Shown piece after piece: positions 12,501 to 49,313 of a stretch of 64,000 nt of DNA. The stretch lies in assembly GCA_949358305.1 (NCBI GenBank), contig OX442316.1, positions 7,688,001-7,752,000 on the forward strand, written 5' to 3'. This DNA comes from Strigamia acuminata (taxonomy: Eukaryota > Arthropoda > Chilopoda > Geophilomorpha > Linotaeniidae). The translations under genes and the position numbers were made by a program. Within the stretch, counting starts at the first letter, position 1, and each line of letters starts with the position of its first letter. The notes beneath the pieces are model-generated. The model did not search any database, was not told where the DNA came from, and was given only the letters and a program-made list of their open reading frames with translations.

Positions 12501-15500
12501 TTGCAAAGCCATCTGTGCATTCTGTGGGCTGTGAGATCTATTCATGCAATATATTTAAAGCTGTTGTGTACATTAACATAATCAGTCTTTAATAATCAAT
12601 TTGAGTGTGAATATACCTCATTGTGTACAAATAACAATTTAGTTGCGGTCATAAATAATTCTATTTTTTTGCACTAAGTGAATCAACATCGTATCATCGT
12701 AGTGATGAAAATAAGAGAGCAAACTGGACAATGTGTGCAACGTCAAATCTTTACCAATAAGTATCTTTTAGACCGAATTAGCGTAAAATTACGAGCTGCA
12801 TTTATTATTTTATTTCCTTCATGGCTTTTTGTTCCCGCATAAATTTGTGAATAAAACATTACATATAATTAATTCAGTACTTTGAAAGTTTGCACTCTTT
12901 TACTTAACTTTACTATATTATACAAGTTAAAAACAAAATCAGAAAAATATATATATACAAAAAAAAATAAGGAAGGAAGGAGGAAACTAATGGAATAGTA
13001 TTTTTTTTTCTTGTCTTTACAGTCTCGATTTACGTCAGAAGACAGTATCAGAAGCGATGGTTTTAAATTATTCAGCAAGTGACATCCGTAGCAGGTCCTC
13101 TTTTCACATGGAGACTTCACCGGCGTATTTGTTGGTGAACGACGTGCGAGATGAAGATGAAGGTATCTATCGATGTAGGGTGGACTTCCGCAAGGCACAT
13201 ACCCGCAATTACCTGGTTTATATGGCAGTCGTAGGTGAGATTCTAGAACCCGGCTCAAGTACTCATTGGGGAGGTGTATGGGGTGGTAAAGAAACAGAAA
13301 CGACCCAAGTTACATTAATTAAAGACATTTAAAAGCGTCTTCATTATCAACAGCCATTCAAACTCGGTCGAGCAAGTTGTTGACGAAACTCAACAACTTT
13401 TCTCGTCTCAACATTATATAAAAGCATGTATGAAGAGTAAGAAGCATGTTTATAAATAGGCTCTTGGATGATATAGATTGACGCAGAACGTCTTAATTAC
13501 ATATACAAGAGACGATTACCAAGTGAGTTGATGCCTTGCCTGTTAATGTCGCCGCCAAGTGGTGAAGAACTAACGTTTCGTTTGCATAATTTTATTCATC
13601 TATCATTTTTTTTTTGTATAAAGTCTGTGACACTAAATGTTTTGACGATTGTTTATGTTAAACATCAGAACATTAAATATTAGTGGCGGAAAATTAGCTT
13701 TCTTATATGTTGATATTAAAGCGACATAAATTAATTTGCAGATAAATGCGTCGCGTAAACACAGACGGTGTTTGGGTTTTATGAATAATTGTTATTTCTT
13801 AACTATTTTTCGTTTATTTAAAATTATTTAAATTTTGAAAATTATTTAGAAAGTATTTGTGTTGTAGATTTGCACAAGAATTCACTTATACGAGACTTGA
13901 ATGGCTTTTGTATTTAATTCGTCAACTTTGCTGTATTTTTGAAGCAGTGAAGGTGGAAAACTTTTACTTTGTGATCTCTGAGTTTTATGTACGCACATAA
14001 AAAAAAATTCAATTTATTTTTTTTTCTTTAGAATTTTTTTTCTGCTGTTTTGGAGTTTTTTTTAAGAACCTCAAAACTTCTAAATAAATTTAAACGTGAT
14101 TCGCATTTTAATTGATCAAAAAATAAAAACTTATTCCTTTGTATTCAGTTGCGTGCATTAAACGGCAAGTGAAATGACATGATATTGTACGAAAACTGCA
14201 TCAGTGCAATGTTGTTTAAAGGTTTCTTTTGAACAAACTTTATGGAGTGGAACGAGTATGTTTTGGGTGTTTTGTTCAGCATTCCTTAAAAGCCTAATTT
14301 TAAAAAGACAACGCAATTTTCTTTATGTTTAACCACAAAAAAAAATAATCTTTTTTGCAATAATTCACTTAACACGGTGCACAGATAAGACAACACAATT
14401 ACACTGATGTTACAAATTTAATTTTTCATTTGTACTTTTCGATTTTTCGTAACTTTCTGTTTTCTTTTTTAGTTCCACCCAGAAAGCCAACAATACTGGG
14501 TGAAAAAGGATTGGAACTCAACAGTGTGGTTGGTCCTTATAACGAAGGTTCCAGTTTTTTCTTGTCGTGTGAAGCTGTTGGAGGTGGGTGTTGTGGCATT
14601 TTCTTTTCTTTATTTGTGTCCAAAGTAAAAGTCTGACCAATCGAATAGATTTCCAATGATGGACAGGCTCCGTTTTCTTCACAGCACAAGGGCAGATTGC
14701 AAAAAGGATACTCGGCTTGTCACTTTTCTATTTCATTCCTTTTCAGAGATAACTGACAGGCAAATTCCTCTGTCATGGTGGTTATCTAAAAAAAAAAAAA
14801 AAGAACTAACATTTCCTGACGCCTAGAAATATCATTGCCAGCAATGGCAACATTTGACCCGTTAGCAATCATACGAGGTTCCTTCCTTTGCCTTGGTTTC
14901 TTATCTTATCAAGCAGGTGTGGAAACATTCATTCATACAAATAATAAGCAAAATATCAGTTGACCCTAAATATCTATTATGTAATAATTTACGTGCGTCG
15001 GAAGAATGATTTTTTTAAAAAAAAAAAAATAGTCAATAGGCGCAATTGAAGTTTCGATTGTTATGGTCTTTACCGTTTCTATAAACGGAATAACATCAAA
15101 AACAGCCAAAAACCATCACCAAAAACCAAAACCATTACCACGACTGGAGTGGTTTATGAATCGGTTTCTGTTTACAACTAAATTCAAAATGGCCGTCTCG
15201 AACGTTAGAACGTCATATCAGACTTTCAAGTGTCATAAACACTTTCAGATGAAGCATCCACACCAAAATGTGAGTAAATGCTAAATTATGTGCAAATAAA
15301 TAAATGAAAGAAATGGAATTTTTTGCGAACTATTTTGGCCGTTTTTATGAACGAAACTTTAAACGCACCTATTCAAATTCTACACCATTTCACATAAATA
15401 AATGTTGTCAAATTGGTTAAATTTTGCTTTATTTCATTACAAAAATTTGAAATTTTGAGTGATGTGTATTGCGTTTACCAATATTGATGCATTTTTGTCA

Positions 15501-32624: not shown

Positions 32625-32632
32625 CATTGCAC

Positions 32633-33008
32633 GATAGGGTGGAATATTTTCGACCCGGATTCCTTTCGACCGGGATTCTCTTCGACTGGATTTTTTGCGA
32701 CCGGATTTTTTTCGACTGGATTTTTCTCGACCGAGAAACTTTTCGACCAGGAATTCTTTCGACCAGTAAATATTTCGACCGGATTCCTTTCGACCGGGAT
32801 TCTCTTCGACCGGGATTCTCTTCGACCGGGATTCTCTTCGACCGGGATTCTCTTCGACCGGACATTTTTCGACTTCAACAATGGTTGGGGGTTTATATAC
32901 CCCAAATAATGTCACGCATTATATACGTGACGATGTCAGTATACAATACGTGACGATGACACGTATTGTATACATGACAGGACTAATGTACGATATATTG
33001 TTCAATCC
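32633..33008 (+). repeat. Left terminal inverted repeat of the giant element
   Basis: After ten terminal bases (gatagggtgg) comes aatattttcgaccc, then an array of about 16-20-bp units of the type ttcgaccgggattctc with variants. It ends in an inner part containing a perfect 14-bp stem (32,939-32,952 and 32,960-32,973, gtatacaatacgtg) and the boundary motif ttcaatcc. The reverse complement of 48,955-49,281 has the same order. Open frames on both strands here are products of the repeat, not genes. Confidence 0.85.
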
Positions 33009-33137
33009 AATACTATATTTTTTAATGGAAATTGCTGGAATTGTGTTTCTTGAATAAGCATTTTTTACAAGCAAATAATCTACTTTTGCAGTCTTCTTTA
33101 TAGCATTTACTCACTAAAAGTTTAGTTCTAATTGCAG

Positions 33138-33377
33138 ATTGTGTTGTGCAATCCGATCTGTTTAATCGGTTACACTATCGCATCAAGGAATTTCTTTAAC
33201 GAGCGGATATACGAAGAAGAATTCATTCTTTTAAATTTTTTCGGTCAAGATTACGTGAAATATCAGAAGAAAGTGCCTACTGGATTACCTTTTATATCGG
33301 GATTCAGGGTAGAGTACCAAAAATCTTTATTTTTAATTCAATTTCTTTTTTTAATAAACAAACAAACAAATAAATAA
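33138..33377 (+). pseudogene. ICMT: ICMT last exon (captured 3' fragment)
   Basis: A clean acceptor (ctaattgcag) opens a frame whose product carries VLCNPICLIGYTIAS, RIYEEEFIL, FFGQDYVKYQKKVPTGLPFI. This is the C-terminal catalytic part of protein-S-isoprenylcysteine O-methyltransferase, an ER membrane enzyme that methylates prenylated CaaX proteins (family consensus EEExxLxxFFGxxYxxYxxxVPTGLPFI). No other ICMT exon was found in the window and the left terminal repeat lies directly upstream, so this is a fragment without its 5' part. The frame runs about 18 residues past the usual C-terminus. It faces the AAR2 fragment tail-to-tail, 34 bp away. Confidence 0.85.
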
Positions 33378-33411
33378 AAACTGTGTAAATTAATTTCAAA
33401 CTTTAATTTCA

Positions 33412-33870
33412 TCATTGCAGTCGCAAACATGCAGAAATCAAACCTATTTTTCTACTTTTGAAAAAACATCGGATTCGATTAAATTCGTGTGAAAATGCTT
33501 TTATTTTACAAAATAATGTACAAAAATTTAAATATTTTTTAAACCTTCTACCCTTTTCTACAATTTCGTGCGGTACTTGTTGGTTCCCGTTCAAATTGGA
33601 GAAGAAAGAATGCAATGTGTTGACGAGGAAGTTTCTGAAGTTGGTGATGAAGTACAAAAATGAATTTTGAATATAAATCTGCGTATTTCGTAAGAGCATT
33701 GTCACACGAGCACAGCAAGTGGATTAAATGTTTCCATTCTTCAAATGCGTCGTACATCTGTTCTAAAATGAAACAAATAAAAGCCATTTCAAGTTCGCCG
33801 AGAATGTCTTCAGGATCTGTATAGGTCAAATCTAAACTGTGTTTTGTGATTTCAGCTGCCATCGGGATAC
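33412..33870 (-). pseudogene. AAR2: AAR2 C-terminal fragment with frameshift
   Basis: Read from an acceptor at 33,870 the frame encodes AEITKHSLDLTY, ILGELEMAFICF, YDAFEEWKHLIHLLC and VLHHQL. These are hallmarks of the C-terminal helical domain of AAR2, the U5 snRNP (Prp8) assembly factor. After VLHHQL the homology continues in another frame (FLVNTLHSFFSNLNG...), so a small deletion with frameshift has disabled it. Only the 3' part is present. Its tail abuts the ICMT fragment, which suggests the two were captured together from one locus of convergent genes. Confidence 0.8.
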
Positions 33871-35510
33871 CTGGCAATGTGTTACTTTTTTAAAATCAAA
33901 ATTGTCTTTTTTTTTTCTTCTTACTTTTTTTCAGGAAATTTGGAAAAACGATTTTCCGTTCCGGGTTTTTGACACATTTTCGTAAGAAAATCATCTAGTT
34001 TTGGTAAAAAATCTTTTTTTTTGGCATAAAATTACATTTTATTATTACAAAATTGCATTTTTGAGTGTAAAAGTAAAAAAGCACATTTCATATAAGTGGC
34101 AAAAAAATAATTGACGAAATAAAAACCAATAAATCCAACAAATCGGTAACAAACAACAATAACAACAACAACTACTCTTTCTTTTTTTCAACAAATTTGC
34201 AGTTTAAGTCGCGAAACGCAAACGTTAATCTGGCTTCCTCCATTTTGCACTTGCATTTTTGGCACACAGATGGCGCCAAAGTTTTCCCAAGTTAAAGTTT
34301 TTCTCTCTTAAAAATGAGTTAATTTTTTTATTTTCGTGTGTCTTTCCTCCACAGATTTTTATTTTTTGCAATGTCTACAAAGTGTTATCCAATTTTCGTG
34401 ATTAAACATTTGAGCACGGAGTATACATATTTCTGGTCTGTTTCCTGATTTAATTGAAATTAAAAAAATTCAATTTTTTTAATTTTTGACCTTTCTTAGA
34501 TTAAAAGGGGTGAGGCGAACAGCTCCCCTACTTAATCCCTAGGGTTGCAGGTGCTGCCTGCCATTTTGTTTTACATTTTGTTTTATAGACAAATCAAATC
34601 AAACCAAATCAAACAATCTTTTTGAATAAAGCTTTTATGTGGGTGATTCAAATCGAGTGCGCTACTACCGCAGATTGTTTCGCCATTGCGGTGACCGTGA
34701 CCGTGCAAAAAAACGTTTGAAAAAAGAACTTGTTCTTAACAATATAAAAGAACAAAATATATGGGCAGATAAGAATTTTGATTTTAATCAGGTTACGCCA
34801 AAAAAATTAAATTTAAAAAATCAAACAAAATCGTTCGCAGACGAGACGTGGCGACCGCGAAGGTGTCCGTGTCTCAAACTCGCAAGCCTCCGACCGTTGC
34901 GTCGGTGTTTGTTCGTTCGTCGCCATTTCAAGTCGATTTCACGGATATATATACGGCACACATCAGCGTCGGGTTCAAATCGATGTGTTTTGTTACAAAT
35001 ATTCACAAGGTTTAATTACCAGAAAAAGATTAAACAAAATACTTTATTTTTTTAATCAGGTGATGCCAAAAAAATTAAAATTAAAAATCAAAGAATCGTT
35101 CGGAGACGGGACGCGGCGAACGTGGATCCGACGGTGTTTCGGCCAAACACTCACGGTCAAATAAAAAAAAAAATGTTGACAAAAATAAAAAAGCACGGTG
35201 GTTCACCCACTCACCATGCCGAGCCGACCCCACCTACTCCGGCATCGATCCCCAACCCCCGTCGAAACCAACAAAATTAAAAAAAAATGAAATAAACACT
35301 AGTTGCATTCAAAAATTAAAATAACAATTTCAGTTTAAGTGTGGTGTAATTCAAGTCGATTTCACGGCGAACATCGCTTTCCATGCCGCGATGTCTCGAA
35401 CTAAAGTACGTTTTACCGTGTGAATGTTTTTTGGGCCCCCAGATTTCCGGGGGCCCCATTTCAGTTAATCAGTTTTTCAAAAAATAAATAAATAAACAAA
35501 TAAAATATTC
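33871..35510. other. Noncoding interior of the element with degenerate direct repeats
   Basis: Two diverged copies of a block beginning ttaatcaggt...gccaaaaaaatt occur at about 34,784-34,880 and 35,050-35,130, roughly 267 bp apart. A smaller repeated motif (aagtcgatttcacgg) occurs at about 34,930 and 35,350. A GTG-started frame at 34,639 (basic, RLFRHCGDRDRAKKRLK) could be a decayed exon but has no ATG. A GC-rich hairpin (gggccccc/gggggcccc) lies near 35,435-35,458. No confident gene. Confidence 0.5.
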
Positions 35511-35641
35511 CTATGTTCATTTTAATTTTATTTTATTAACATAATTTCCTCTCCAAATCCGCGATCTTCAAACACACGGCTCCAGCGTGTACGCGATTAC
35601 GTAGATTTCGGCGGCCTTTTTAATGTAAATGTTAAACATCT
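35511..35641 (+). repeat. 131-bp direct repeat, copy 1
   Basis: Nearly identical to 37,934-38,064 (same length, a few substitutions), starting ctatgttcattttaatttta and ending gttaaacatct. Copy 2 lies just downstream of the stop codon of the gene at 37,420-37,866, so the block may be a 3' UTR/terminator module and copy 1 the leftover tail of a lost paralogue. The two copies bracket both unknown genes. Confidence 0.85.
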
Positions 35642-35852
35642 GCAACGAAATTAAATTAAAAAGTAAAATAGGACTTATTCCATCAAATAATCAGATTTTA
35701 ACGAAGGTGATATTGTTTTGAAAACAATCATTTGATCGTCAAAAAAATTTTCACTTGTATCCGGACCCCACTCAAAATTACTTGCCGACCCCTGGTTTAC
35801 AGTGTGTGTAGAGGGGCCGGAAATGTCTTTACCCTTGAGAGGTGTGATATAA

Positions 35853-36371
35853 ATGGCAGCAGGTGTTCCTCCCCCAATATTCAGTAAAGAGACACCGGTC
35901 CCCTTTAGGCAAAGTCAACTCGGCAGGTGTTTGAAGGGAAATGCAAGAAAAATAAATGGAAAATATGATTGGGACGAGGTGCACGAATTCGTGAAACGGT
36001 GTTTGAAATCGGAAGATGAAATATCTCGCTTCAAGTGCCAATTAGCAGTTGATAATGTCAATAGATTCAAGCAGCAAAATCGACGTGCTAATTTGTTTAC
36101 AAAGCTGTTGAGAAATTTAGATTTCACGCAACTAGATAAGTTTTTAGAGTGGTGTTTTGAGGCTGATATTGAGGAAATTAGTAACTTAAAAAAACGTATG
36201 TTTGAAGGCACGATTCCGTCCGATTTCGTCCGTTTAATTAGTTATTTAATTCGGAAGGAGGTGATAAAATTTAAAAATGAATTGATGATTTGTGAATGGA
36301 TGGATGATAATAATAAACAATTTAAAAAAGAAATAAAACAAGAATTTCTGTTCCAATTCCTACTAATGTGA
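35853..36371 (+). CDS. Unknown 172-aa helical protein carried by the element
   Basis: Uninterrupted ATG-to-TGA frame of 172 codons in a region where frames of this length are otherwise rare. The product is hydrophilic and rich in K, E, F and L: a Pro-rich start (MAAGVPPPIFSKETPVPF), then amphipathic helices such as DEVHEFVKRCLKSEDEISRFK and ANLFTKLLRNLDFTQLDKFLEWCFE. The second stretch faintly resembles the latter half of death-fold (CARD/DED) domains, but this is only an impression. No enzyme motif, signal peptide or TM helix. It lies between the two 131-bp direct repeats, 1 kb before the next unknown gene. Function unknown; a decayed cargo gene is the alternative. Confidence 0.55.
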   Translation: MAAGVPPPIFSKETPVPFRQSQLGRCLKGNARKINGKYDWDEVHEFVKRCLKSEDEISRFKCQLAVDNVNRFKQQNRRANLFTKLLRNLDFTQLDKFLEWCFEADIEEISNLKKRMFEGTIPSDFVRLISYLIRKEVIKFKNELMICEWMDDNNKQFKKEIKQEFLFQFLLM

Positions 36372-36655
36372 AATTTTATTTACTTATTGATAAAATATAA
36401 AAAAAAATAAAAAAAATTGAAAATTAAATTAATTATTTTAAATTTCGACTCTCTTGTCGTGAAAGATGCTATTTTTGCGGAAAATAAATTTCGTTGAAAA
36501 TGTTTTTAAAAGTGTGGATAATGCAAATGGATCATTTTAACAACAAAATTTTTTAAATTTGAGGTGGTTTTTGGTCTGCAATTGCCGCAATCGGGCCGTA
36601 ATGCCGCAATTGGTCAATATTTGAGCGTGTTTCGGAAAAATTTAGAGAACGTACG

Positions 36656-36673
36656 TATTACGTATACGTAATA
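36656..36673. repeat. 18-bp perfect palindrome
   Basis: tattacgtatacgtaata reads the same on both strands. It is followed by a second cgtat/atacg cluster and a TATA-like gtatataaac at about 36,708-36,717. It may be a binding site or promoter remnant of the element. Confidence 0.6.
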
Positions 36674-36760
36674 TCGCCGTATCGGATACGTCAACACGAC
36701 TTTTTCGTATATAAACACTCTGTATGCATTGGTATTGCCACAACAATCCTCCATGAAAAC

Positions 36761-37060
36761 TTCAAATTTCGTTTGAAAACTTCAAATTTCGTTTGAAAAC
36801 TTCAAATTTCGTTTGAAAACTTCAAATTTCGTTTGAAAACTTCAAATTTCGTTTGAAAACTTCAAATTTCGTTTGAAAACTTCAAATTTCGTTTGAAAAC
36901 TTCAAATTTCGTTTGAAAACTTCAAATTTCGTTTGAAAACTTCAAATTTCGTTTGAAAACTTCAAATTTTGTTTAAAAACTTTAAACTGCCTTTAAAAAC
37001 TTCAAATTTCCTTTATAAACTTCAAATTTCCTTTAAAAACTTCAATTTTTCGTATAAAAC
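36761..37060 (+). repeat. 20-bp tandem array (about 15 units)
   Basis: Unit ttcaaatttcgtttgaaaac. Ten units from 36,761 to 36,960 are perfect or nearly so; the remaining units degrade progressively toward 37,060. Homogeneous units on one side and decayed units on the other fit slippage or unequal exchange. There are no spacers, so this is not a CRISPR array. It lies just upstream of the promoter of the gene at 37,420. Confidence 0.95.
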
Positions 37061-37355
37061 CTTGAAATTTTGGTCAAAAACTTCCCGGATGAGCCCGCAA
37101 TAAGTCCGCAAAATGCCGTTTTTTAATGCCGCTTTCCACCCGCAATTTCACTGTTTTAAGTCCGCAAAAATAGCAACTCCACGTCGTGATGTCTTGCTTC
37201 TGATTGGGTGTGATACGGTTTTCCATTCAGGCATTGAATTTCGACACATTTTTGTACAAAATCTATAATCCATAATCCATTTCTAAGACCACTACCTCCC
37301 TCCCCCCGCTCAACCAATCATCACCTTGTTATTTTAATCCTTTTAGTGGCGGTAG

Positions 37356-37363
37356 TATATAAG
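37356..37363 (+). promoter_or_regulatory. TATA box of the 37,420 gene
   Basis: TATATAAG lies 57 bp before the start codon, in less AT-rich surroundings (ggcggtag before, cgtgtgg after). A transcript starting about 30 bp downstream would have a 25-35-nt leader containing CCTAA repeats. A real TATA box here argues that the gene is expressed. Confidence 0.6.
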
Positions 37364-37419
37364 CGTGTGGTCTAAACGCCAAAAACCTAACCTAACCTAA
37401 CCAAGGTACCTTATTACAG

Positions 37420-37866
37420 ATGGCTAACCACAACACACTTTTCGAAGAGGAAAAATATACATATGAAGACTTCTTCGAATGGGGGTACGAGGGCATTGAG
37501 GATTTTAAAAAAAGAAATCCGCCGACAAAGCCATGCCGCACGCTGCCACCGGACGACGATCCGATGGAGTGGCTGTCAACAGCGTGGATTGGCGGTTGTG
37601 GCCGCTGGCGAAAACCCCGTCCGCCGAATCCGATAAAATTCCACAATTTCGACTCAGACGAAGAAGAATTGTCAAAGATTGATGCGGCCTTGGAGTTGCG
37701 AGAAGCTGCATGTGAGTATTTGTTTATATATTCTATTTTGTGTAATCTATTTATTAATTTGTTGTTTCCTAAAGTGCTGAAAGCGGAACCGTTGGATGGT
37801 GAATTGCAAATCGAGGAAGAAGATGTTGATGTTGATTTTGATGAAACGAAAAAAGAAGAATTCTAA
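37420..37866 (+). CDS. Unknown acidic 127-aa protein carried by the element
   Basis: Two exons, 37420-37711 and 37775-37866, split by a 63-nt GT-AG intron. The intron has no in-frame stop and a length divisible by three, so retention would give a 148-aa form. The N-terminal part is aromatic and acidic (YTYEDFFEWGYEGIEDF), the middle is Pro/Arg/Trp-rich (WIGGCGRWRKPRPPNP), and the C-terminus is strongly acidic (EEEDVDVDFDE). No known domain was recognised. A TATA box lies upstream and the 131-bp repeat downstream. The acidic end with aromatic patches could be an activation or protein-binding tail; this is inference. Confidence 0.6.
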   Translation: MANHNTLFEEEKYTYEDFFEWGYEGIEDFKKRNPPTKPCRTLPPDDDPMEWLSTAWIGGCGRWRKPRPPNPIKFHNFDSDEEELSKIDAALELREAACEYLFIYSILCNLFINLLFPKVLKAEPLDGELQIEEEDVDVDFDETKKEEF

Positions 37867-37933
37867 ATTAAGTGATTTTGTAAAATTTTGTAAAATGTTA
37901 ATAAATCGAGAATTCACTGTATACACTTTTTGT

Positions 37934-38064
37934 CTATGTTCATTTTAATTTTATTTTATTAACATAATTTCCTCTCCAAATCCGCGAAGTTCAAACACAT
38001 GGCTCCAGCGTGTACGCGATTACGTAGATTTCGGCGGCCTTTTTAATGTAAATGTTAAACATCT
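37934..38064 (+). repeat. 131-bp direct repeat, copy 2
   Basis: Partner of 35,511-35,641. Around this copy the motif aataaatcg...aattc(a/g)ctgtata occurs on both sides (about 37,901 and 38,066), so a roughly 165-bp unit has begun to tandem-duplicate here. It includes AATAAA polyadenylation signals suitable for the preceding gene. Confidence 0.85.
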
Positions 38065-38680
38065 TTAATAAATCGATAATTCGCTGTATAAACTACGTGT
38101 CTATTTTTATTTTCATTTTACGAGGACTGAAAATTGAAAAAATAAAGTTTTTGCTAATAACTTCAATTTTGGGCTAAAAACAAAATTTTCAGGTCAGAAA
38201 TGTTATTTTTTGGTTCAAACTAATTTTTTTTTTTACTAAAATAATGAATTTTTTACTAAAACCATCAATTTTTTGTTACGTTGCAAGGACGAACTGGCGC
38301 ATGGGCGCCAGTACCGTACCGTCCGTGTGTTGCGGTATTTCGTGGTGTGGTATTGTTGCCATTTAACCTAAAATGTGTAGACAACTGTCTAGACACAACT
38401 AAGACTAGTAGAATAGTTACAATTAAGAGATTAAATTTCCTCAAATTAAAACATCGTTTCAAGTTCACAGAAAGTTGACAAATTCCTTTTTTGTTCGCTT
38501 TACAAAAGAAGCCATGGGGGATCCAGGCTGAAGGGATTGTGTGAATAACCCCTTCACCTTCTCCCATTTCCTGCTTCAGGATTTGGGTAAAAGTTGTGTT
38601 TAATTTTGGAGCTCAGAGGTCATTGATAAAGCAACATTGAGCATAGGCAGACGGAATACAGCAGATCTCGAGCAGCAACA

Positions 38681-39824
38681 ATGTAAGTAGTATATTATTT
38701 ATTACACATTTTTTGGGTCGCTTCTTAGCGTTGGCTGCATGCAATGCTCGGTTTCCCTGGTAACGGTAATAATAATTTTTTCGAATTTTTTTGAATTTTT
38801 ATCGTATTTTTTATTTATTCTTATTGGTTTTTATATGAAATAAGTGCTTTCAAAATTTTGGGTTTTTGCCGTTTATGCCGTTTATAACCGCCGAAATCGT
38901 GCGCAAAAACCGTTTAAAAAAAACCGTTTAAATTGCAAACATCAAAATCAGCATAAAACCGATTCATAGACCACTCCAGTCGTGGTTTTTAAAATAAAAA
39001 CACAGATAAAAATCAATAAATAAAAATAAAAAGTAATAAAAATGTCATTAAAACATGTTGAAAAGGATGCTGAAACATCGCGAAGATGATGCGGAAACGC
39101 AATCGTTGCCCCAAACTTTGTTTTGGTTGATTTTCTGATCAGTTTTTGATTTTTTTTGGTGTTAATTTGGGTTTTTTTTGATTTTTTTGGTTAATTTTGG
39201 CCTTTTTATTTATTTTGTTTGGTTAATTTTGGCCTTGTGCCCCCCACCCCTCACCCCCGCCTTGAACAATGGCGCGCATCGCCGCTTGAATCTCGGGGGT
39301 CCCTGCTGTTCGTTTGGCGTCCTTTCAGCGCCTCACTCACATTTCTTCAATTAAAAAATACAGTGGAATGCAATAAATTATGGTATTTGTCATTTTATTT
39401 CGTCAAAAAACTTCAAGCAAATGACACGTACTGCAGTGAAGCCCAACTCCCAAATCTTTCTCTATCCCCTGCTTCTTCTTCTTCTTTTTTTATCACTCGT
39501 GGACATAATTTAAAAAAAAATGCATTTTCAAGTAAAGCATCGATTATTTTAATTAAAAAATTTCCATCTTCCAGGTCACAATCAACTTCCGCCAATCCTG
39601 CCCCAACCTCGCAGAGACCCAGAACCAGAAGAAATCTGGCTGCATTTCTGAATCTGAACCAGCCAACAGGGAACTGCAAAATTTGCTGTGCAGCGGATAT
39701 TGAATACGCCCTGATTCCATGTGGGCACACTTATTGCATAAGTTGTGCCGAAAAATGCTGTCAAAATAGAAGATGCTACTTCTGCAACAATACAGTGTCA
39801 GATAAACTAAAGTTTTACATGTAG
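38681..39824 (+). CDS. Stand-alone RING-finger protein (83 aa) with split start codon
   Basis: The terminal exon 39575-39824 follows a good acceptor (catcttccag) in phase 2 and encodes a C3HC4 RING: CKIC, 11 residues, CGHTYC, ISC, then CYFC. Upstream, ...gcagcaacaat|gtaagt (exon end 38,682) offers a donor whose last two bases AT plus the first base G of the RING exon create ATG, followed by SQSTSANPAP. The model is therefore a 5' exon ending in AT, an 892-nt intron, and the RING exon. The RING exon enters in the same phase as the RING exon of the transposase at 45,454 and has the same layout, so it probably derives from a transposase C-terminus. RINGs of this type usually act as ubiquitin E3 modules. 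Confidence 0.6.
38956..38986 (-). repeat. Dispersed repeat, copy 2
   Basis: Reverse-complement partner (one mismatch in 31) of the block at 15,137-15,167 in a receptor intron. It lies inside the intron of the stand-alone RING gene. Confidence 0.7.
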
Positions 39825-40279
39825 CGAATAAATCAGTCATAAGTTCGAAACAAAACGTTTCTTTATTTCAACCGTAAAAACAGTAAATAAATAAATAAAT
39901 AAATAAATCAATAAATCAACTAATCAATCAATAAAATAAACAATAAGTAAATGAAATAAACAAAATTGACTGCCGGAACTTTATAAACACAGTCGACCGG
40001 GTTTGAAAGCTAAAATACGGCCGAAATGTCTCGATTTTGCCGGAACATTTTAAGACAGTTGCCCGCGTTATTATAATTTAATACATTGACAAAAAGCTAA
40101 ACACGAATACAACGATCTATATCATAATCCTACCGTCAATTTGGTTGAAAAATAAAGCGACAATAAAACGATAATGCAGCGGCGAAAATCAAGCGGCGAA
40201 GCTCGAAGCGGAGGACACACGCGCGAAGCACAAAACAAATACACACACACGGCGGCGAAACGTCCAGTTAATTCAGTTA

Positions 40280-40465
40280 CAGTGCTGGACTGGCCCGGCG
40301 GGCTACCGGGAGTTTCCCGGTGGCCTGTGGCCGCTGTGGCCTGTGGCCGCTGTGGCCTGTGGCCGCTGTGGCCTGTCGCAGCCCGCTTTGGCCGTTCCCG
40401 ACTTCATTAATTGTGACCGGACACCCAGATTTCCCGGCCATAAATTTGTTCCCAGTCCAGCCCTG
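40280..40465. mobile_element. hAT-type MITE with perfect 8-bp target duplication
   Basis: The ends are cagtgctggactgg and, from the other strand, cagggctggactgg. The 8-mer ttcagtta flanks it exactly on both sides (40,272-40,279 and 40,466-40,473). An 8-bp duplication and CAGNG ends are diagnostic of hAT elements. Its GC-rich interior contains three copies of a 16-bp unit (gcctgtggccgctgtg, 40,323-40,370). It has no coding capacity and is nested in the giant element. Confidence 0.9.
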
Positions 40466-41205
40466 TTCAGTTATTACAATTAAAATGTTAACCACTGGAA
40501 AAACACAAACACTTAGGTAATCCAACTAAAGTTGAAGTCAAAACTTGAATGCCATTGAAAAACTTTTGAGTTCCTAAACCCAAATACAGATGACAGTAAG
40601 ATTTATGATTGCTACTGCACAATTAAGATAAGTTATGATGTCATTCCATCAAAATGGCTGCCAATGCTAAAAATGTTATACAGTTAAAGTTATACAGTTA
40701 AAGCCAACGCCACCGACAGATGGCGCTAATTTCAATAATTGCTATTGACATTTTTGTGCCAATCTAATGGGTTTTGTTTTGGTTTTAGTGAAAAAATGTA
40801 TTAATAAACTGAAATGAGTTTTGATTAAAATAAAAAAATATCTTTAAAACATTTTCATTCTTATTTTTCATTGTACAACTGTATAAAGTCTAAATTTAAT
40901 TCCACAAGAAGAGACTAACACAAATGAAAATACTCTATGCATAAAGGTATATTTTATTTTTCATTATTTAATCTCCTTAAAAATCCCAACCAAACTTGAC
41001 CTCAAACACCGACCAAATTCCAATCATACTTCTGAATTCACAACTGGAAGTCAAAATGGAAGCAGAGAGAGGTTCAAGTCCCTATTAAAAAGATGTGCCC
41101 CTTGAGAGCACTGTGTATGACTGGTCACTACGTATTCAGTTGACTAGCCATCATGTCGGCGTTTCGTTGACCAGCAGCCTATCACGTATTCACACGTTAT
41201 TTCTT

Positions 41206-41212
41206 GTATAAA
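41206..41212 (+). promoter_or_regulatory. TATA-like box of the transposase gene
   Basis: GTATAAA about 97 bp upstream of the transposase ATG, giving a predicted leader of about 70 nt. It is the best-placed TATA-like site before the gene. Confidence 0.4.
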
Positions 41213-41308
41213 TTGTCTTGTTTCTGTCAAATAAAGTAGTGAATTGAGTAAACTCAAACCACACGCTTCGTGATCGACTCACAATCACATTACAATATTT
41301 TAGTAAAG

Positions 41309-44300
41309 ATGACATCTTTCGAAAAAATTCCAAGTGGAAAACCAGGAAAGTTTATGTATGCAGATCTAAATGGCTACCTGTGGAACAAAAACAAGATTAA
41401 ACCGACAGGCATGTATCTGTGCTGCAGTAAAAAACCTTTATCTAAAGGGGGATGCAAAGCCACAGCAGTCATCTCCGCTGATAATGATTTAGTGGTAACA
41501 ACACTAAACAATTATCATAATCACGCTCCAATGACTAAAGACATTGAATGTAAAAAGGCCCTTATCTTGATGAAGAAGAGGGTTCAGAGGGAGCCTACAT
41601 CAACGCGTCAGATTTTTAATGAAGAGCGGGCAAAACTGTAAGTGATTTCCCGAAAAAAATTTACTTTTTGTAAGGGGCCGTGAGGCGCATGATATATCGC
41701 GAAAGTTGCAAGTTCAGGTTTTTAATGAGTATTTTAGAAAATTCGAATTATTAGTTAATGTTTCTAGCATTTTCAGGGCTGTTTACAGTCTTAAGTTGGG
41801 TTTTACGCGTTTGAGTTTCCCGCCGTCTTCGCCCCGCTTGTTGGTCTGCCATAGTTCCCATTCCGTGTCGGTTAGCAGTCTGTAATTTCGATAGTTTATA
41901 GGGATGCCAATGTTTTACTCATCTGACTCAGCTGTCGTTTCATTTGCGAGTCGCTTCTAGTTGTTTCGGGGTCGGGAGTCGGTCGGCCTTGGCTTGCCTC
42001 GTGCACGCCATCGTCGGCTAGAGCGGCTAATCGAGCGATCTCCGTCTTCTCGTGCCATACTGATTGAAATCGACTATTGTTGTTTATTTACTTTATTGAA
42101 AGTGTTTTGCGCAATCGAGTGGTTGGATTTAAAAAAAAAATAATGTTTAAATAACGTAAATCGATTTATTTCTGGTATTAAATATGACATGGCAATACAT
42201 TAAAAAGTCGGTTTTAATTGACGAGTGAGTTTAGTCTTCTTTTAGAGCGTTGTAGCAGTCTTCATCCATCCGGAGACCTCGAATTTACTCCTCAGAATCA
42301 TTTTGGGTCTAGAAATTTAATTAAATTTAACTTAATCGAATGTTTAAAAATTAAAAATTTATTCACCTTCTGTACGAGTTGTTCAACGTGCTCTTTTTTA
42401 ATTTCTCTTTATTCAGTTTTATTTCCCTATGTTTTATTCCATTTCCAGCCCTCAGGCTGATTGTGGTCACTTTTCAGTGATCCCCCTTGTCTCTTGAGTG
42501 ACTCACGTTACTCCAAGACAGTTTTAGTTTTGGTTTACAGAAGCAGGGAAAAACCCAGAACTATATCGCCATCTAGTGGCCTAAAAACTAACTAACAGTA
42601 TATCATTCAAGACTTTCTCTTTGCTGCACGCGACTTTCAAATTATCCTGTTATTTTCGATTTGTTTTTAATTTGTTTTAATTTTTTCGATTTATTTCGAT
42701 TTGTTTTTGATTAAATTTGACGAATTTTGATTCATTTTTGATTTAATTTGATAAATTTTGTATTATTTTGGATAAATTTTGATTCATTTTTGATTTATTT
42801 TTGATTTATTTTTGATTTATTTTTGATTTATTTTTAATTTTTACCAATTTTGCTTGCCATTCTGCATTCTCCGTTTTGATGTTGTCGTAGATTTGACCTA
42901 ATTTCGTCTTTTATTCGTATTTTGAATGAATTATCTGTCTTAATTCGTCCAATTTGGCACTTTTCTTTAATTCCAAACCATTGAAATCAATTTTTTTCTT
43001 TTTTTTCATTTTTCTCTCTCTTCGATTTACCACAATTCTTATTTCTTCTTCGTCGTTTTGCCGTATCGTAAGACGGTCTAGTTTTTTCCTTTAATTATCA
43101 TTTTTTCTCGTCCACGTCCACTCCTGGCATTTTTCCTTTTTAATTTCCTTAAAAATTTTAGACATAAAATTCTAAAAACATTTAAAAAAAAAATGATCTT
43201 AAATTTACCTCTTCCATGTTCTTATGTTACCCTTTTTATCCAGTTTTTCACGATTTGCACTTGGTTTTTCACGATTTTTACAGTTTTTAATGATTTATTT
43301 TACTGATTTTTACATTTCTTAAAAATATGTTTTAAAATCTGTTAAAAATTAAAATCTGTTAAAAAGCATTCATTTATTTATTAAAAAATATTAATTGTAA
43401 TTTTGTTTTATTTTATAGTTCACAAATTGCTTCGACCCAATTAAATTTTATAACGGTCGAATCTAATTTGCGAAAGACAAGGGCGCAAAGCAAACCAAAA
43501 GCGCCAAGTACTGCAGAAGAATTTGCAGTACAATTGCAAAATGCTGATTATCGAGCACGATTTATTGAGCCTCCCATGCAAGTGGAAATTATAAATTCTA
43601 ATGAGACCTCCATTATTGTGCTCATAAATTCTAACATTCTAACATTCATAATTGAAAATGCTCTGGAAAGTGCAACATATCATATTGATGCAACATTCAA
43701 GCCTTGCCCACGTTTTTTTAGTCAGCTGTTGACAGTTCAACTGAACTATGATCGAAATGTATGTAAACCAAACTCATTTTTTTTCTTTTTAATTCATATT
43801 ATTTCATCTGTACAGGTGTTTCCGGCATTTTATGTTTTAATGCGAAACAAGACTGCAAATTCATACTCTGCAGTCTTGAATTACATCAAAGTCAAGATTC
43901 CGAATTGGGCACCGAATATCATTTCGGATTTCGAAACTGGGATCCTTGCGGCAGTGAATGCGTCTCTGCCTTTATCCAGGCACCATGGTTGCTGGTTCCA
44001 TTTCTGCAAAGTAAGTTACTTTTCCCAATTGCTTTTTTCCCGACAGTAGTACAAACTTTTTTTTTTAGGCACTTAGGACAAACATGGTAAAGAGACCATA
44101 CCTAAGTGCACTGATTGCAGGAAATGCAACAGATGCATTCATTCTGAGAATTCTGAAATTGGCAATGGCATTGCCCTTACTGCCGGTAGATGCGATACCA
44201 GAAGGGTTGCAAGTGATTCGGGTAAACAAAAAATTAATTTATACACATATATTTTGCAATTACACATAATTTCTTATTTATTTACTAACCATTCAGAGAA

Positions 44301-45640
44301 CCTTTACGACACGACAACAGGAATATTTGCAACCAATTAGGAACAACATTAACAATTTTCTCCAGTATGTCCAGAATTATTGGATTGGTCAGGTGACACC
44401 AAGACGGTTCAGCGTCCACAATGATCCTGAGCGAACCAATAATTTGCAGGAAAACTTTCACAGGCATTTCAACTTTTATTTGCCGCCATCGTTACCTCAC
44501 TGGGAATTGATAAGTAAGAAAAATTCAAATTAGCATGTGTTATTGTATTTTAATTTCATTATTTTTTTTCAGAAAAAATTAACCTGGACTGTCAGTCAAA
44601 ATATACTGACTTGTCAATAGTGCAATCGGGTCGTCCACTAAGCCGACCACGACGATTGCACGACAACTCAGTGAGCATTACCCTGGCAAGTGAAAGGCTG
44701 GCAACTGGAGAATACACCATCCAGCAATTTTTGAATGCTATGGCCCACCAAACGGATGGCTTCGTTGAATTTGCAGTCGGGCAATTGGAAAATCTGGAAA
44801 ATGAGGAACTTCAACAAAATCAGGAAGATGAAAATCTGGAAAATCCTGAAAATCCTCAAGGTATCTTTGAAGAGTTGTTAATAAATTTAATTCCAATAAT
44901 TAATTTTTTTTTTAATTTTTTTTTTCTTAGAACCAATGCAACAAATTCAGGAAGATGAAAATCCTGAAATTCCTGAACCTCAAGGTATCTTTGAAGAGTT
45001 GTTAATAAATTTAATTCCAATAATTAATTTTTTTTTTAATTTTTTTTTTCTTAGAACCAATGCAACAAATTCAGGAAGATGAAAATCCTGAAATTCCTGA
45101 ACCCCAAGGTATCTTTGAAGAGTTGTTAATAAATTTAATTCCAATAATTAATTTATTTTTTAATTTTTTTTTCTTAGAACCAATGCAACAAATTCAGGAA
45201 GATGAAAATCCGGAAATCCCTGCACCTCAAGGTATCTTTGAAGAGTTGTTAATAAATTTAATTCCAATATTTAATTTGTTTTTTTAATTTTTTTTTCTTA
45301 GAACCAATTCAACAAAATCGTCGGTCCGGAAGAACTGTCAGAAGGCCCAGAAATAGACATCTGGATTCACCGACTTCAAGGTAAAAATTAAGGTATAATG
45401 TGATACTAAACATTTGCTATTTGAAAATTTTAAAACTTAATGTGTCATTCCAGGATGGGCCGACAACAACCAGTGCCAGACATTGAGAGGTGCACAATCT
45501 GTGATGGAATCAGAACACATGTTTTGGTTCCCTGTGGTCACAGATTTTGCCAAGAATGTGCCACGTTGCCAGAAAGGAACATGGGACGATGCCTGAGATG
45601 CAGGACAGACATTGAAATGGCAATACGGTGCTATGATTAA
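41309..45640 (+). CDS. FLYWCH - MULE transposase - RING fusion protein, 649 aa
   Basis: Eleven exons join in phase: 41309-41637, 43419-43758, 43816-44010, 44069-44221, 44297-44513, 44573-44860, 44931-44984, 45055-45108, 45178-45231, 45302-45380, 45454-45640 (1,950 nt). Residues 10-75 form a FLYWCH-type zinc finger (GYLW, C38/C39, C49, H70, H72). The MULE core has HIDATFK (D200), ISDFETG (D261), GCWFHFCKAL (C282, H285) and the conserved RTNNLQENFHRH. An acidic linker carries 18-residue repeats (QEDENPEIPEPQ). Residues 601-635 are a C3HC4 RING (CTIC, CGHRFC, QEC, CLRC). MULE transposases cut and paste DNA in the nucleus; a RING suggests ubiquitin-ligase activity. There is no stop or frameshift, so it may be active. 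The third catalytic acid was not assigned. Confidence 0.85.
42650..42850 (+). repeat. T-rich tandem degenerate repeat in transposase intron 1
   Basis: Runs of gattt(a/g)ttttt-like 10-12-bp units, most regular at about 42,780-42,835 (gatttattttt). The remainder of this 1.8-kb intron (41,638-43,418) contains no supported exon. Confidence 0.7.
44861..45301 (+). repeat. Tandem array of exon+intron units in the transposase gene
   Basis: Four near-identical introns of 69-70 nt (starting gtatctttgaagag, ending ttcttag) alternate with three 54-nt exons of 18 codons. The repeat unit of about 124 nt thus contains one complete exon and one complete intron, both borders in phase 1. Each duplication adds 18 residues without breaking the frame. 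Homologous part-units lie in the 3' end of exon 6 and the 5' end of exon 10, marking the ancestral boundaries. Confidence 0.9.
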
Positions 45641-45651
45641 AGAGGCATAAG

Positions 45652-45842
45652 ACTTGCATTCAATTGAAATGCTTTTTTATCTTTAATCTGAAATTAAAAG
45701 AAAATAAATAAAAATTCAATGTACGTATGTACATTGAACTTATATTTATTTAAGGTATTTAAACATTGAATTTTTAGTTATTTTCTTTTAATTTCAGATT
45801 ATTAGTGTATGATAAAAAAAAGCATTTCAATTGAATGCAAGT
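45652..45842. repeat. Long inverted repeat at the transposase gene 3' end
   Basis: Arms 45,652-45,722 and 45,763-45,842 are nearly perfect reverse complements (acttgcattcaattgaaatg at the outer end, attcaatgt at the inner end) with a 40-bp loop. One arm holds the AATAAA signal about 60 bp after the stop codon. The transcript would end in a stable hairpin, or the second arm is an inverted copy of the gene tail. Confidence 0.85.
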
Positions 45843-46238
45843 GTTGCAAACAGCAAATAGATTGTTCACGTGTTGTATTATTTTCCTATTTAAAGAAATT
45901 TAAGTTTTTTAATACATTATCTTTGGTTTATTAATTTTTGTTACGTATCTAATTGAAGTGTTTCTCTATTGTGCGTAATTCCTATTGAAGTGGTATTTGT
46001 TGATGTGTTTCAATGTATCATTTTCCGGTTAAGTTGCGCTATGTTAATGATGCGTGTTTCAGTTTCCAGTCGGTTTGTGCGATGATTCTGAAAAGGAGTG
46101 TTTTTAGGTTGAAATATTTCGTGTAAAATTCTTAATTATAAGCGTTTTTTTGTATTTTTACCTGTTGAATCAATTTTTAATGTTTTCATGATGATCTGAC
46201 AACTCTGGAGGTCTGTTTGGTGCCTTTTTTGTCTGTTA

Positions 46239-46266
46239 ACGACCAAGGACAATTGTCCTTGGTCGT
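46239..46266. repeat. 28-bp perfect palindrome
   Basis: Half-site acgaccaaggacaa followed directly by its reverse complement, with no spacer. It lies between the transposase gene and the FBXW4 fragment. It may be the core of a small foldback remnant or a binding site. Confidence 0.9.
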
Positions 46267-46480
46267 GGCTCATGTTGTGCGCTTTCAAAGTGTCATTCAT
46301 TTCCTAGAAGTTGTAAAACAATTAATTACGAATTATACTCATGTATTCTTATGTTTTGTATCGATTTTAGTGGTAATCCATCGCTGGTTCGTGTGTAAAC
46401 CGCTTGTTTGAGCGAGAACCGGAAGTGTCCTCAATGTCGGGCGCCATGTTGGATTTTACCAATGATTTGTTATTAATTTG

Positions 46481-46790
46481 TAATATATATATATATATAT
46501 ATTATATATATTTTATGCTGAAAAGTCAATTTTTAGTAAAAAAAATCTAAAAATAATTTAATTTTTTTTGTAAAAGTATTAAAAAAATTCAATTTCAAAT
46601 TTCTTTCAAATTTCAATTTTTACTCAAAAAATATTAAAAAAATTCAATTTTTACCAAATTAATCTTTAAAATTCAAATTTTTACTCAAAATATCTTTGAA
46701 AAATTCAATTTTTGTGAAAAAAATATTTTTAAAATATTAATTTTTATAAAAAGAAATTCAATTTCTTTTTTTAAAAATGGACTATTTTCT
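46481..46790. repeat. AT microsatellite and ttcaattttta-type degenerate repeat
   Basis: About 14 TA units at 46,483-46,512, then a stretch of variants of aaaattcaatttttac to about 46,760. Noncoding. It separates the transposase side from the captured FBXW4 fragment. Confidence 0.7.
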
Positions 46791-46930
46791 GGCATCCGTA
46801 GAGAACCAATGGAATTTAGCGTTTTTTCTGCCAATAAATGCTAAATCTTTAATTTAAAGTTACAAAATCTCGAACTAAGATTTGATGAAAATTACTTGAA
46901 TTTTGATAAAAATTACTCGAATTTTGACAG

Positions 46931-47385
46931 GCGGGTACGACACCTACATTAGAATGTGGGATTTACGAATTGAAACATGGTAGCGAACATTTTGTTTGTA
47001 AAAGAAATGGAAGCGATTTATTGTTTAAAATGTTTCAGTGTTCTCCTTTGGGAAGATCCTCACGATTCTGTTGTGTATTGTGTTGCAACGGACGATAAAT
47101 ACACGATTTTGAGTGGTACGGCATTACACGGCTTAGTTCGATTGTGGGATAAACGATTAACTAAATCAGTACAAGTGAGTTTTGTTTGCAAAGGTACTTT
47201 TCTGTACCGCAGTTACTTAACGATTTGTGTGTATTTTCCAGATGTATTACGTTGGGCATAGAAACAGTCCCGTATATTCAGTTACCGTTGACCACTGTTA
47301 CATGTATGTGGCATTGGATTATTCTGTAAACTTTTTGAATTTTGACAATTGTTATTTTCCAAATAACTTTTCTAGTTTCATGTAA
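46931..47385 (+). pseudogene. FBXW4: FBXW4 3' fragment (last three exons)
   Basis: Exons 46931-46979, 47039-47174 and 47242-47385 join in phase to ...GYDTYIRMWDLRIETCVLLWEDPHDSVVYC, HGLVRLWDKR and MYYVGHRNSPVYSV...MYVALDYSV, then a stop. This matches the last WD40 repeats of F-box/WD-repeat protein 4, the substrate-binding end of an SCF ubiquitin ligase. Splice sites and frame are intact, but the F-box and earlier WD exons are absent; upstream lies AT-rich repeat and then the transposase. It reads as a truncated captured fragment that could still be transcribed. It faces the lipid-phosphatase fragment tail-to-tail about 220 bp away. Confidence 0.75.
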
Positions 47386-47601
47386 GAAATAATGAATGAT
47401 ACAATAACATCCAATTTTTAATACACTTACGTATAATGTTATAACAGTGAAAAAAAATATTGAACACTATTGAAAAATATGTAAAAAAAAATATAAATAA
47501 AAATAAAAAAATTTAATGATTACCAAATTTAAACGAGGTGATTAAACTTCAATATTTTATGCTCGCATTGCACTTAATTTAAATCCTCAGATCGTTCAAA
47601 C

Positions 47602-48549
47602 TTAGAATGTTGTTGAGGGATTGATGATGCAAGAGAACATTCCGAATGTATATTGTACACTGATGATGTGCACAACATAAGCACAACATAAGCGCCACGA
47701 CTGACCTCGCCCTTTGACGTTGAAACAATACAACTTTCCAGCGAGGTAAAGGGCTGTGAAGCCCATACTTGCGAATGTAACTGCATGGTTTAAATTTAAA
47801 AATTAGATAAAAACTTACATTGTTTTCATTCTTTTCTGTACGTACAACTAGAAAACTTGGAAAACTTTTGCGGCCGTTTGATATGTCTAAAATATTACCC
47901 GTAAAATTCATTTCTGAATTGACATATCCATCCGGAAAACATCGCCAAAAGAAATCTGGCCGTGGTCTAAAAATCTGCGTTTCACTAACGAGAATAAATG
48001 CAATACTCACCTTCCAACTGCTAATTTTATCACGTTTGTGAGGACACCATTCAAACATAAAGTTAATGACAAGCAGCTGCAAAATAATAAAAGAAAAGAA
48101 CCATTTTAAGTCGTATTTATATATTCTGAAAATAAGATATTTTAATATTTACCTAAAATAGCTTGCAAAATATCCGATTTATCTCGTTTTGTGACTCCGA
48201 AAACAGTTATGAAAAATAATGGAACAAATAAGACGAAAGGCTACAACACAATATCAATCTAAGTTTTAAAATTAAAAGGTATGTGCAAATTTATATTTAA
48301 AAATACAATTACCCATAAAATTGCTACAGGTACGGTACATAACTAGGTGTTCTAGGATTTCTATACAGCCATAATTCTTCACTGTGAATTTTCCGTTGGA
48401 AAGGTTCAGTCAGCTCGGTTTTCCTAAAGTCAGAAAAATAAGCGAGATTAAAAATTCAGCTTCATATTATTTTTTTTACCCTAGTCTTACCAAAACATTA
48501 ACAGCAATATTACTCTTACAATAATTTCCATGCACATACTATTGCCCAT
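47602..48549 (-). pseudogene. PLPP4/5-type lipid phosphate phosphatase, decayed
   Basis: Pieces on the minus strand, in order: 48549-48491 (MGNSMCMEIIVRVILLL), about 48423-48339 ([16 protein letters not shown]), 48240-48153, 48076-48011 ([14 protein letters not shown]), 47966-about 47850 ([22 protein letters not shown]) and about 47790-47602 ([27 protein letters not shown]). These match phosphatidic-acid phosphatases of the PLPP4/5 type. The donor after GRKSFPS is lost and the catalytic PSGH motif cannot be assembled. A frame shift separates the third and fourth pieces, and the SRxxDxxHxxxD motif at the end is missing. It is therefore a pseudogene, though its first exon and several splice sites remain. 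Confidence 0.7.
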
Positions 48550-48570
48550 TTTCTCTACTGAATGTTTGGT

Positions 48571-48768
48571 AGAATGACGGTTTACGGGCGACCCGAAAAT
48601 CAAGTTTATAATTTAATAATTTAATTTAGTTAATTAAAACCCCAAGAAGGGCTAACAAGGGGGGGCTGCGCCCCCCCTTGACCCCCGCGAACCTCACCTT
48701 GCTGGTTTTTTTATGCAAACCACTTCTTTGAGCCGACTTGTCGTGAGTCGCCCGTAAACCGTCATTCT
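48571..48768. mobile_element. 198-bp inverted-repeat element at the PLPP fragment start
   Basis: Perfect 22-bp inverted ends (agaatgacggtttacgggcg..., 48,571-48,592 and 48,747-48,768). The interior holds a GC-rich perfect hairpin (caaggggggg...ccccccttg, about 48,656-48,681). The 10-mer tgcccatttt occurs at 48,543-48,552 and again at 48,768-48,777. It may be a target duplication of MULE length, but 18 bases lie between its left copy and the left inverted end. The left copy contains the PLPP ATG. Confidence 0.6.
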
Positions 48769-48954
48769 GCCCATTTTACGACCATTTTGTTCATCAACAA
48801 ACACACATTAAATAAGCACTTAATTTTCCTACAGTATATTGTTCTAGCCGGGATTGAATAAGGGATTGGCTGTATAGTACCATACATTTTGATTTTTTGT
48901 GCAAAAATTTGGACTTTTTCTGCAAACATTTATGTTTTTTGTGCATAAAGTGTG

Positions 48955-49281
48955 GGATTGAACAATACACATTAGTCCTTTCATGTCTACAATACGTGAC
49001 ATCGTCACGTATCTAATGCGTGACATTATTGTTGAAGTCGAAAAATGTCCGGTCGAAAAAAATCCTGGTCGAGATGAATCCTGGTCGCAAAGATTCCTGG
49101 TCGAGTGGATTCCTGGTCGAAAATAATCCCGTTTGGGTCGAAAATTTTCCTGGTCGAAAATTTTCCTGGTCGAAAATTTTCCTGGTCGAAAATAATCCCA
49201 GTCGAAAAAAAGCGCACTTTACCTCGAGTCGAAAAGAATCCCGGTCGCAAAGAATCCGGGTCGAAAATATTCCTCCTCGCC
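48955..49281 (-). repeat. Right terminal inverted repeat of the giant element
   Basis: Reverse-complement counterpart of 32,633-33,008. Going inward from 49,281: ten terminal bases, aatattttcgaccc, minisatellite units of the type ttcgaccagg(a/g)..., then cattagatacgtgacgatgt and ggactaatg, ending at ttcaatcc. It is about 50 bp shorter than the left copy because of different unit numbers. Open frames on both strands are repeat artefacts. Confidence 0.85.
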
Positions 49282-49313
49282 CATTGCACCGGTGATTTTC
49301 ATGCTGTCTTGTG

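Follow-up and report, generated by a model that had tools for sequence, protein, structure and literature searches.

We analyzed a 64,000-nucleotide stretch of the genome of the centipede Strigamia acuminata (the window; G000:C4:7688001-7752000), in which a 16.6-kb block with its ends at positions 32633 and 49281 has the structure of a Mutator-like element (MULE) transposon, referred to below as the window copy. Genome searches covered 237,517,015 bases in 157 contigs; contig C4, which holds the window, is very probably chromosome 3, with C11, C12 and C13 very probably being chromosome 9, X and Y. An 8-bp target duplication, CATTGCAC, lies directly outside the ends of the block at 32625-32632 and 49282-49289, this 8-mer being found at three more plus-strand and two minus-strand places in the window. 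Exactly ten bases, GATAGGGTGG at the left and GGCGAGGAGG at the right when read inward, separate the duplication from a 20-mer common to both ends (AATATTTTCGACCCGGATTC), of which the window contains a single copy per strand, one at either end of the block.

The left terminal inverted repeat (32633..33506, plus strand) consists of the 10-bp end motif, subrepeats of about 16 bp at 32647-32861 and a unique inner part whose inner limit was taken from a relative of the window copy, copy A, while the right repeat (48945..49281, minus strand, from the end-repeat alignment) carries subrepeats up to 49274. Arrays of the ~16-bp unit (TTTTCGACCGGGATTC type) span 32647-32861 and most of 49051-49274. The inverted repeats, of 378 and about 327 bases, aligned over 313-378 columns with 71%-75% identity, and the alignment score of 263 compares with a maximum of 31 in 300 block shuffles and of 37 in 300 random window pairs. 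The original prediction, made from the letters of the window, had claimed a transposon with this duplication and inverted repeats and with ten bases between the 8-mer and the shared sequence at both ends; the letters are as claimed, the ten-base spacing is exact, and the controls scored far lower. Its repeat lengths of about 376 and 327 bp were correct in their letters and too short on the left, where the repeat, judged by copy A, reaches about 33506. Since copy A has approximately 0.87-0.9 kb of end repeat at both its ends, the window copy seems to have lost part of its right end. By eye, both ends read motif, GGA, tandem units, and in the ends of 11 family copies the units were mostly 15-16 bp apart, with 13-17 units per 400-bp end; ends of short tandem subrepeats in varying number are those of a foldback-type MULE. 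The duplication of 8 bp falls within the 8-11 bp that the original prediction gave for MULEs.

Splice prediction from the genomic sequence gave a gene of 11 exons inside the block, with ten introns, all GT-AG, and one 649-aa frame running on the plus strand from 41309 to a stop at 45640; we infer that the 11 exons form one transcript. Predicted exon 1 (41309..41637) encodes a FLYWCH zinc finger, exons 2-6 (43419..44860) a MULE DDE domain with the aligned catalytic residues D200, D261 and E391, and exon 11 (45454..45640) a C-terminal RING finger and the stop, exons 7-10 lying at 44931..45380. In Pfam searches the spliced protein matched the MULE domain (PF10551) with 46.3 bits (cut-off 27.6) and RING with 28.8 bits (cut-off 27), and the FLYWCH finger reached 26.4 bits in its exon frame (cut-off 23.6). 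The three catalytic residues, with 60 and 129 residues between them, were invariant against three distant relatives, and their spacing is within the range published for most arthropod families, 60-76 and 120-135 (PMC13359780; here and below the cited papers are drawn on in part). No match to a PHD finger was obtained in the transposase up to an E value of 0.1, a RING finger standing in its place. Exons 7-9 are tandem units of 124 bp, each a 54-bp whole exon plus approximately 70 bp of intron, repeated over 44812-45316 of the window, by which the predicted transposase gains in-frame 18-residue acidic repeats.

The RING finger of the transposase fits the C3HC4 ligand pattern. A second RING-finger coding frame, identified by Pfam and ligand pattern, lies upstream of the transposase gene (39543..39824, plus strand). 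The original prediction had counted two RING genes as cargo; the upstream frame is indeed separate, but the other RING is the last transposase exon of the splice model, so that one of the two genes is a domain of the transposase. The separateness of the upstream frame could be taken to mean that the C-terminal RING also belongs to a neighboring gene, and the aphid element Ghost has its RING in a frame apart from that of the transposase (PMC6446971). However, in the window copy a single continuous frame runs over ten GT-AG introns and stops only after the RING, and the same joins are found in a diverged copy, X1 (C1:58.0 Mb, about 85% alike), where 18 of 19 tested splice sites were kept, those of the RING exon included. 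As exons 7-9 map to one unit of X1, the sites tested are not all independent. A neighboring gene was rejected as improbable. The relatives of the transposase in protein databases were two Planococcus citri proteins, one unnamed ENA protein and one Brachionus protein, and no other FLYWCH-MULE-RING protein was seen among the best 8,000 candidates of each search.

Searches of the genome with the terminal repeats, from which the original prediction expected further copies bounded by other 8-mers, did find them: at least 48 matches to the left repeat (best 40 of 136 candidates scored) and at least 56 to the right repeat (best 40 of 122 scored). Both outer junctions could be read in 16 two-ended copies, and perfect 8-bp duplications, all different, flank 13 of these. 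The window copy has CATTGCAC, copy A CGTGGGAC, B ATGGGGAT, C AATTTGTG, F GTTTAGAT, the copy at C4:5683 CTCCAAAC and that at C12:4769 GTTGGGGG, and copies H, I, J, K, M and N likewise have perfect duplications. Left outside this count were copy D, whose left end is cut and whose neighboring 8-mers agree in six of eight letters, a rearranged cluster (E), C1:14136 and C8:6718, each with one end off the predicted place, and X3, whose left end abuts a run of N. When the joined flanks of five sites (those of the window copy, A, B, C and F) were searched in the genome for empty paralogs, uninterrupted paralogs with the target present once, not duplicated, were aligned at three places each for A, C and F. 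For C all three places had the exact 8-mer. For F two places did and the other had a single change, and of the places for A, one was without the last letter only and two had two changes. The joined flanks of B gave partial matches only. These ends, duplications and related copies bear out a single MULE-type insertion with foldback-type ends.

F-type end repeats were recognized at 14 places, with both ends about 6.93 kb apart in 12 copies. Eight copies were compared with F: three were 100% identical over 6,932 bp, two 99.99% and two 99.91%, and the eighth was 99.90% identical over the 1,021 bp compared. Copy B (chromosome 9) and X3 (C3) were identical over 10,352 bp, and the window copy differs from B at approximately one place within the last 1,473 positions. 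Judging from these identities, the family has moved very recently. The sequence into which copy F was inserted belongs to a local array of similar ones at C4:5523-5576 kb.

We read the block as a full-length, probably autonomous foldback-type MULE DNA transposon of S. acuminata, to which we give a probability of roughly 85%. What is observed is the 8-bp duplication, a family with like ends and other duplications, and an open, spliceable FLYWCH-MULE-RING gene with its three catalytic residues; the autonomy itself is inferred. The transposase gene gave a Ka/Ks (ratio of nonsynonymous to synonymous substitution rates) of 0.52 against X1, computed over 434 codons from exons 2-6 and exon 11 without exon 1 or the repeated exons, with the lowest value, 0.12, in exon 4 and 0.44 in the RING exon.

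A number of observations weigh against this reading. In exon 2 (0.91) and exon 6 (0.71) the Ka/Ks indicates weak constraint, the FLYWCH finger in the spliced protein scored 23.0 bits, just below the cut-off of 23.6, and the RING exons of X1 and of the Y copy each contain one stop; X1 may itself be decaying, and the Y copy is truncated. The window copy holds the only complete gene among the copies found by DNA search (best 40 of 1,281 candidates), so that its autonomy is not backed by identical transposase-bearing copies. An empty site for the window copy (predicted junction ttttacattgcaccggtgat) was not found in its own genome. Part of the length of the window copy is made up of nested repeats (36462-37178, 46010-46468 and others). 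Finally, three of the 16 two-ended copies, all F-type, have no duplication: G (C1:8695692), C8:12252911 and C5:4699883, the flanking 8-mers agreeing in one of eight letters for the first two and the third being judged by eye. Exchange between copies, deletion of a flank or misassembly are possible causes. G is 100% identical to F over its full length, and the other two were read at their ends only.

Those three copies, together with the run of N beside X3, are also what could be said for an assembly artefact or a chance pairing of unrelated repeats. With empty paralogs for three relatives, 13 of 16 duplications perfect, control scores far below that observed and a HiFi assembly with a quality value of 59.6 (PMC10556566), this was rejected as having next to no chance of being correct.

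A weightier alternative, which we hold to be unlikely though not negligible, is that the transposase of the window copy is dead or irrelevant and that the 6.9-kb relatives were moved by another MULE of the genome. The genome contains 118 MULE-domain matches (150 of 169 candidates scored), many of them in long open frames, and just one of these, that of the window copy itself, lies inside any of the 16 two-ended copies; the other 15 copies hold none. Moreover, one of the two F-type ends (GGCAGGGTAG...) is unlike both ends of the window copy. On the other hand, the same count means that these copies enclose no other MULE match, the gene of the window copy is open, the transposase block is found with the family right repeat at two loci, and across the 40 bases that were compared the other F-type end is identical to the right one of the window copy.

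Whether the transposase belongs to the element was judged from relatives of the window copy. In coordinates within the element, B and X3 are without 3918-14004 of the window copy and C is without 4885-13888. Since B, C and X3 have both flanks without the block, the latter (about 37.5-46.5 kb of the window) might have been a transposon of its own that had inserted into a non-autonomous foldback element. However, B and C are without different stretches, and the joins share about 6 bp (B and X3) and 4 bp (C) of sequence and are without an 8-bp duplication. Copy C also keeps the first 32 codons of an open reading frame (ORF), ORF37k, which extends into the transposase block, and the Y copy carries the 3' part of the transposase, the right half and the right repeat in the same order across both right-hand borders. 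B and C look like microhomology deletions, and internal deletion from a transposase-bearing parent appears to fit better than a nested second transposon, which was rejected as very improbable.

The original prediction had also placed host-gene fragments inside the element, and donors were located for two. The first is a fragment of AAR2 with intron sequence (33528..34005, minus strand), identified by its Pfam AAR2 match, whose likely donor at C3:28.566 Mb is 82% identical. There are 21 AAR2 Pfam matches in the genome, namely this donor and 20 in or near family copies, the match at C8:11358 lying approximately 10 kb from an end repeat. About 1.4 kb of the donor, introns included, are present in copy F (92.6% identity) and about 0.5 kb in the window copy (82%); the similarity in copy D is over 37 bp only. 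The host AAR2 protein, with exon joins made by eye, is 89% identical to AAR2 of Strigamia maritima.

The second segment is DNA of an F-box/WD40 gene (46922..48885, plus strand), comprising the WD40 part, introns and the 3' side, which matches its donor at C3:23.426 Mb in three pieces with 93%-96% identity; about 195 bp of the donor are missing, and an insertion of about 206 bp (48568-48773) is absent from the donor. The donor gene has an F-box exon (50.8 bits, over the cut-off), itself outside the captured part, followed by WD40-like exons which are each below the WD40 cut-off. Copy C holds donor positions 448-3423 with a 147-bp gap and shares its last donor base with the window copy, and the Y copy holds positions 448-3351. 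We read this piece as a probable single capture, inherited and later trimmed. As the window copy and the Y copy both hold it, the transposase-bearing lineage is itself gene-packed. Both host segments thus sit in the family as genomic DNA with introns, and both donor loci are still present.

ORF37k (37420..37866, plus strand) encodes a protein with a 64% identical relative near a diverged transposase copy. Its Ka/Ks is 0.14 over 91 codons, with a Ks of 1.46 that is near saturation, and from this it looks like a conserved second gene. A broader reading would be an autonomous multi-gene animal MULE, in which the transposase gained a RING ubiquitin-ligase domain, ORF37k is under purifying selection and the transposase-bearing lineage itself has taken along as much as 3 kb of host-gene DNA; we put this forward tentatively, at somewhat less than even odds. 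If it is true, capture, amplification and an active source occur together in a single animal genome in which donors and empty sites can be read.

For the window copy as a probably autonomous foldback-type MULE, the following mechanism is likely. The transposase would bind the ~16-bp subrepeats of the ends, probably via its FLYWCH finger, and as a DDE enzyme would cut and paste the element with an 8-bp stagger. It could also act in trans on F-, B- and C-type copies, which are without a transposase. Faulty repair after excision may then trim copies at microhomologies and pick up host DNA. The RING finger, at a guess a ubiquitin-ligase domain, might tune the turnover of the transposase or remove a host repressor.

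That no animal element with this combination of features had been described, as the original prediction put it, is too strong, since Muta1 of Aedes aegypti and Tm1 of Meloidogyne precede it. Muta1, a MULE with a FLYWCH finger, has foldback ends built from tandem repeats, is flanked by duplications of 8 or 9 bp and has derivatives that carry pieces of host genes (PMC5225508). The window copy and its family share with it the FLYWCH-MULE transposase, long ends in which short tandem repeats come after a 10-bp motif (termed type 2 foldback there), 8-bp duplications, host fragments in derivatives with shared ends, and near-identical recent copies (PMC5225508). Unlike the window copy, Muta1 is 3.2 kb in length with a 504-aa transposase from two exons, and no RING domain is mentioned in the parts of that paper drawn on here; its 10-bp motif is an imperfect palindrome, whereas the tips in the present family (GATAGGGTGG, GGCGAGGAGG, GGCAGGGTAG and GGTGAGGAGG) are by eye non-palindromic, and the host fragments in Aedes are in non-autonomous derivatives, whereas here they are also in the transposase-bearing copy (PMC5225508). 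Tm1 is likewise a FLYWCH-MULE with foldback ends made of an asymmetric outer motif, GGA and tandem units, these being 13-15 bp long and varying in number, and with one autonomous copy plus deletion derivatives, which is similar to the situation here (PMC3169594). It differs in its length of 2.6 kb, 9-bp duplications and 496-aa transposase, for which the parts of the report used here mention no RING (PMC3169594).

Among other arthropod MULE groups, some members of Phantom carry FLYWCH and the duplications of this group are 8-10 bp long, and the window copy has both features, FLYWCH by the score of its exon frame; Rehavkus shares the minisatellite but has a PHD finger, for which the transposase of the window copy gave no match; and in Ghost of Myzus cerasi the RING frame stands beside the transposase frame, whereas here, by the gene model, it is joined to it (PMC6446971). 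As in plant Pack-MULEs and animal Pack-TIRs, host DNA is duplicated between the ends, with the donor elsewhere, and amplified with distinct duplications, although the captured segments of about 0.5-3 kb exceed the Pack-TIR median duplicated size of 224 bp (PMC8277862). The window copy thus has the host fragments with donors elsewhere that characterize a Pack-MULE but, with its open transposase gene, not the non-autonomy. The consulted parts of a 2021 survey of 100 animal genomes report no Pack-MULE in reference genomes, and term Pack-MULEs the case, known from populations, of the Drosophila foldback element FB4, which is moved by an unknown transposase (PMC8277862).

MULE lengths in a 2026 survey of 4,268 arthropod genomes were 1.4-10.0 kb, and Strigamia is not named in the main text of that survey (PMC13359780). 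No paper on centipede MULEs was found in the literature searched, which comprised article texts rather than supplementary tables. The plant Pack-MULEs of Jiang et al. (2004) were all no longer than the 7-kb full-length element, and the efficiency of DNA transposition falls above 6 kb of cargo (PMC6431247); the 16.6 kb of the window copy are notable for these two reasons, nested repeats being part of that length. What is new is the size, the RING fusion (by gene model) and a transposase-bearing copy which is itself gene-packed, most parts being known from the mosquito and nematode elements.

The capture of host genes by transposons has been studied mainly in plants, Muta1 derivatives with gene fragments having been described in 2017 (PMC5225508). 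In S. acuminata one and the same genome contains a putative source element along with deletion derivatives, at least 14 copies of a gene-carrying derivative, both donors and several empty sites, which makes it possible to reconstruct and test how host DNA was captured and spread. A transposase fused to a RING finger gives a clue as to how host control might be influenced by elements of this kind, and the transposase of the window copy is a candidate type for the enzyme that moves FB4.

Further features were noted within the window copy and its relatives. A high-copy dispersed repeat with 20-bp tandem units, identified by repeat and genome search, is nested at 36462..37178. A 172-aa ORF (35853..36371, plus strand) encodes a protein found 100% identical in copies B, C and X3, and no donor for it outside the transposon family was seen among the best 40 of 1,422 candidates. 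In the interiors of copies A, B, C, D and F, 203 ORFs of at least 55 aa passed a composition filter; Pfam scans of 10 of these singly and 46 as a set (plus two window ORFs) gave copia-type proteins in B, AAR2 in F and one weak PAP2 match, whose carrier was not located on rescanning 10 of the 46 ORFs. The copia-type long terminal repeat retrotransposon nested in B (L011:6025-9900) is identical in X3 and, being shared by these identical copies, was probably carried along.

The X chromosome (C12, 9.63 Mb, about 4% of the assembly) holds several non-identical copies, namely A, D, the cluster E and copies at 7910 kb and 7951 kb. In a cluster of ends at C12:7518000-7529900 (L016/L017), one right repeat has AGAGTCGA on its outer side and the left repeat has the reverse complement, TCGACTCT, on its own, as if one end together with its duplication had been inverted. 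Copy A on this chromosome contains a 501-aa frame (L009:4954-6456, minus strand) without a Pfam match, which is part of another high-copy repeat; at least 40 copies of that repeat at 100% identity (best 40 of 232 candidates scored) point to a very young mobile family.

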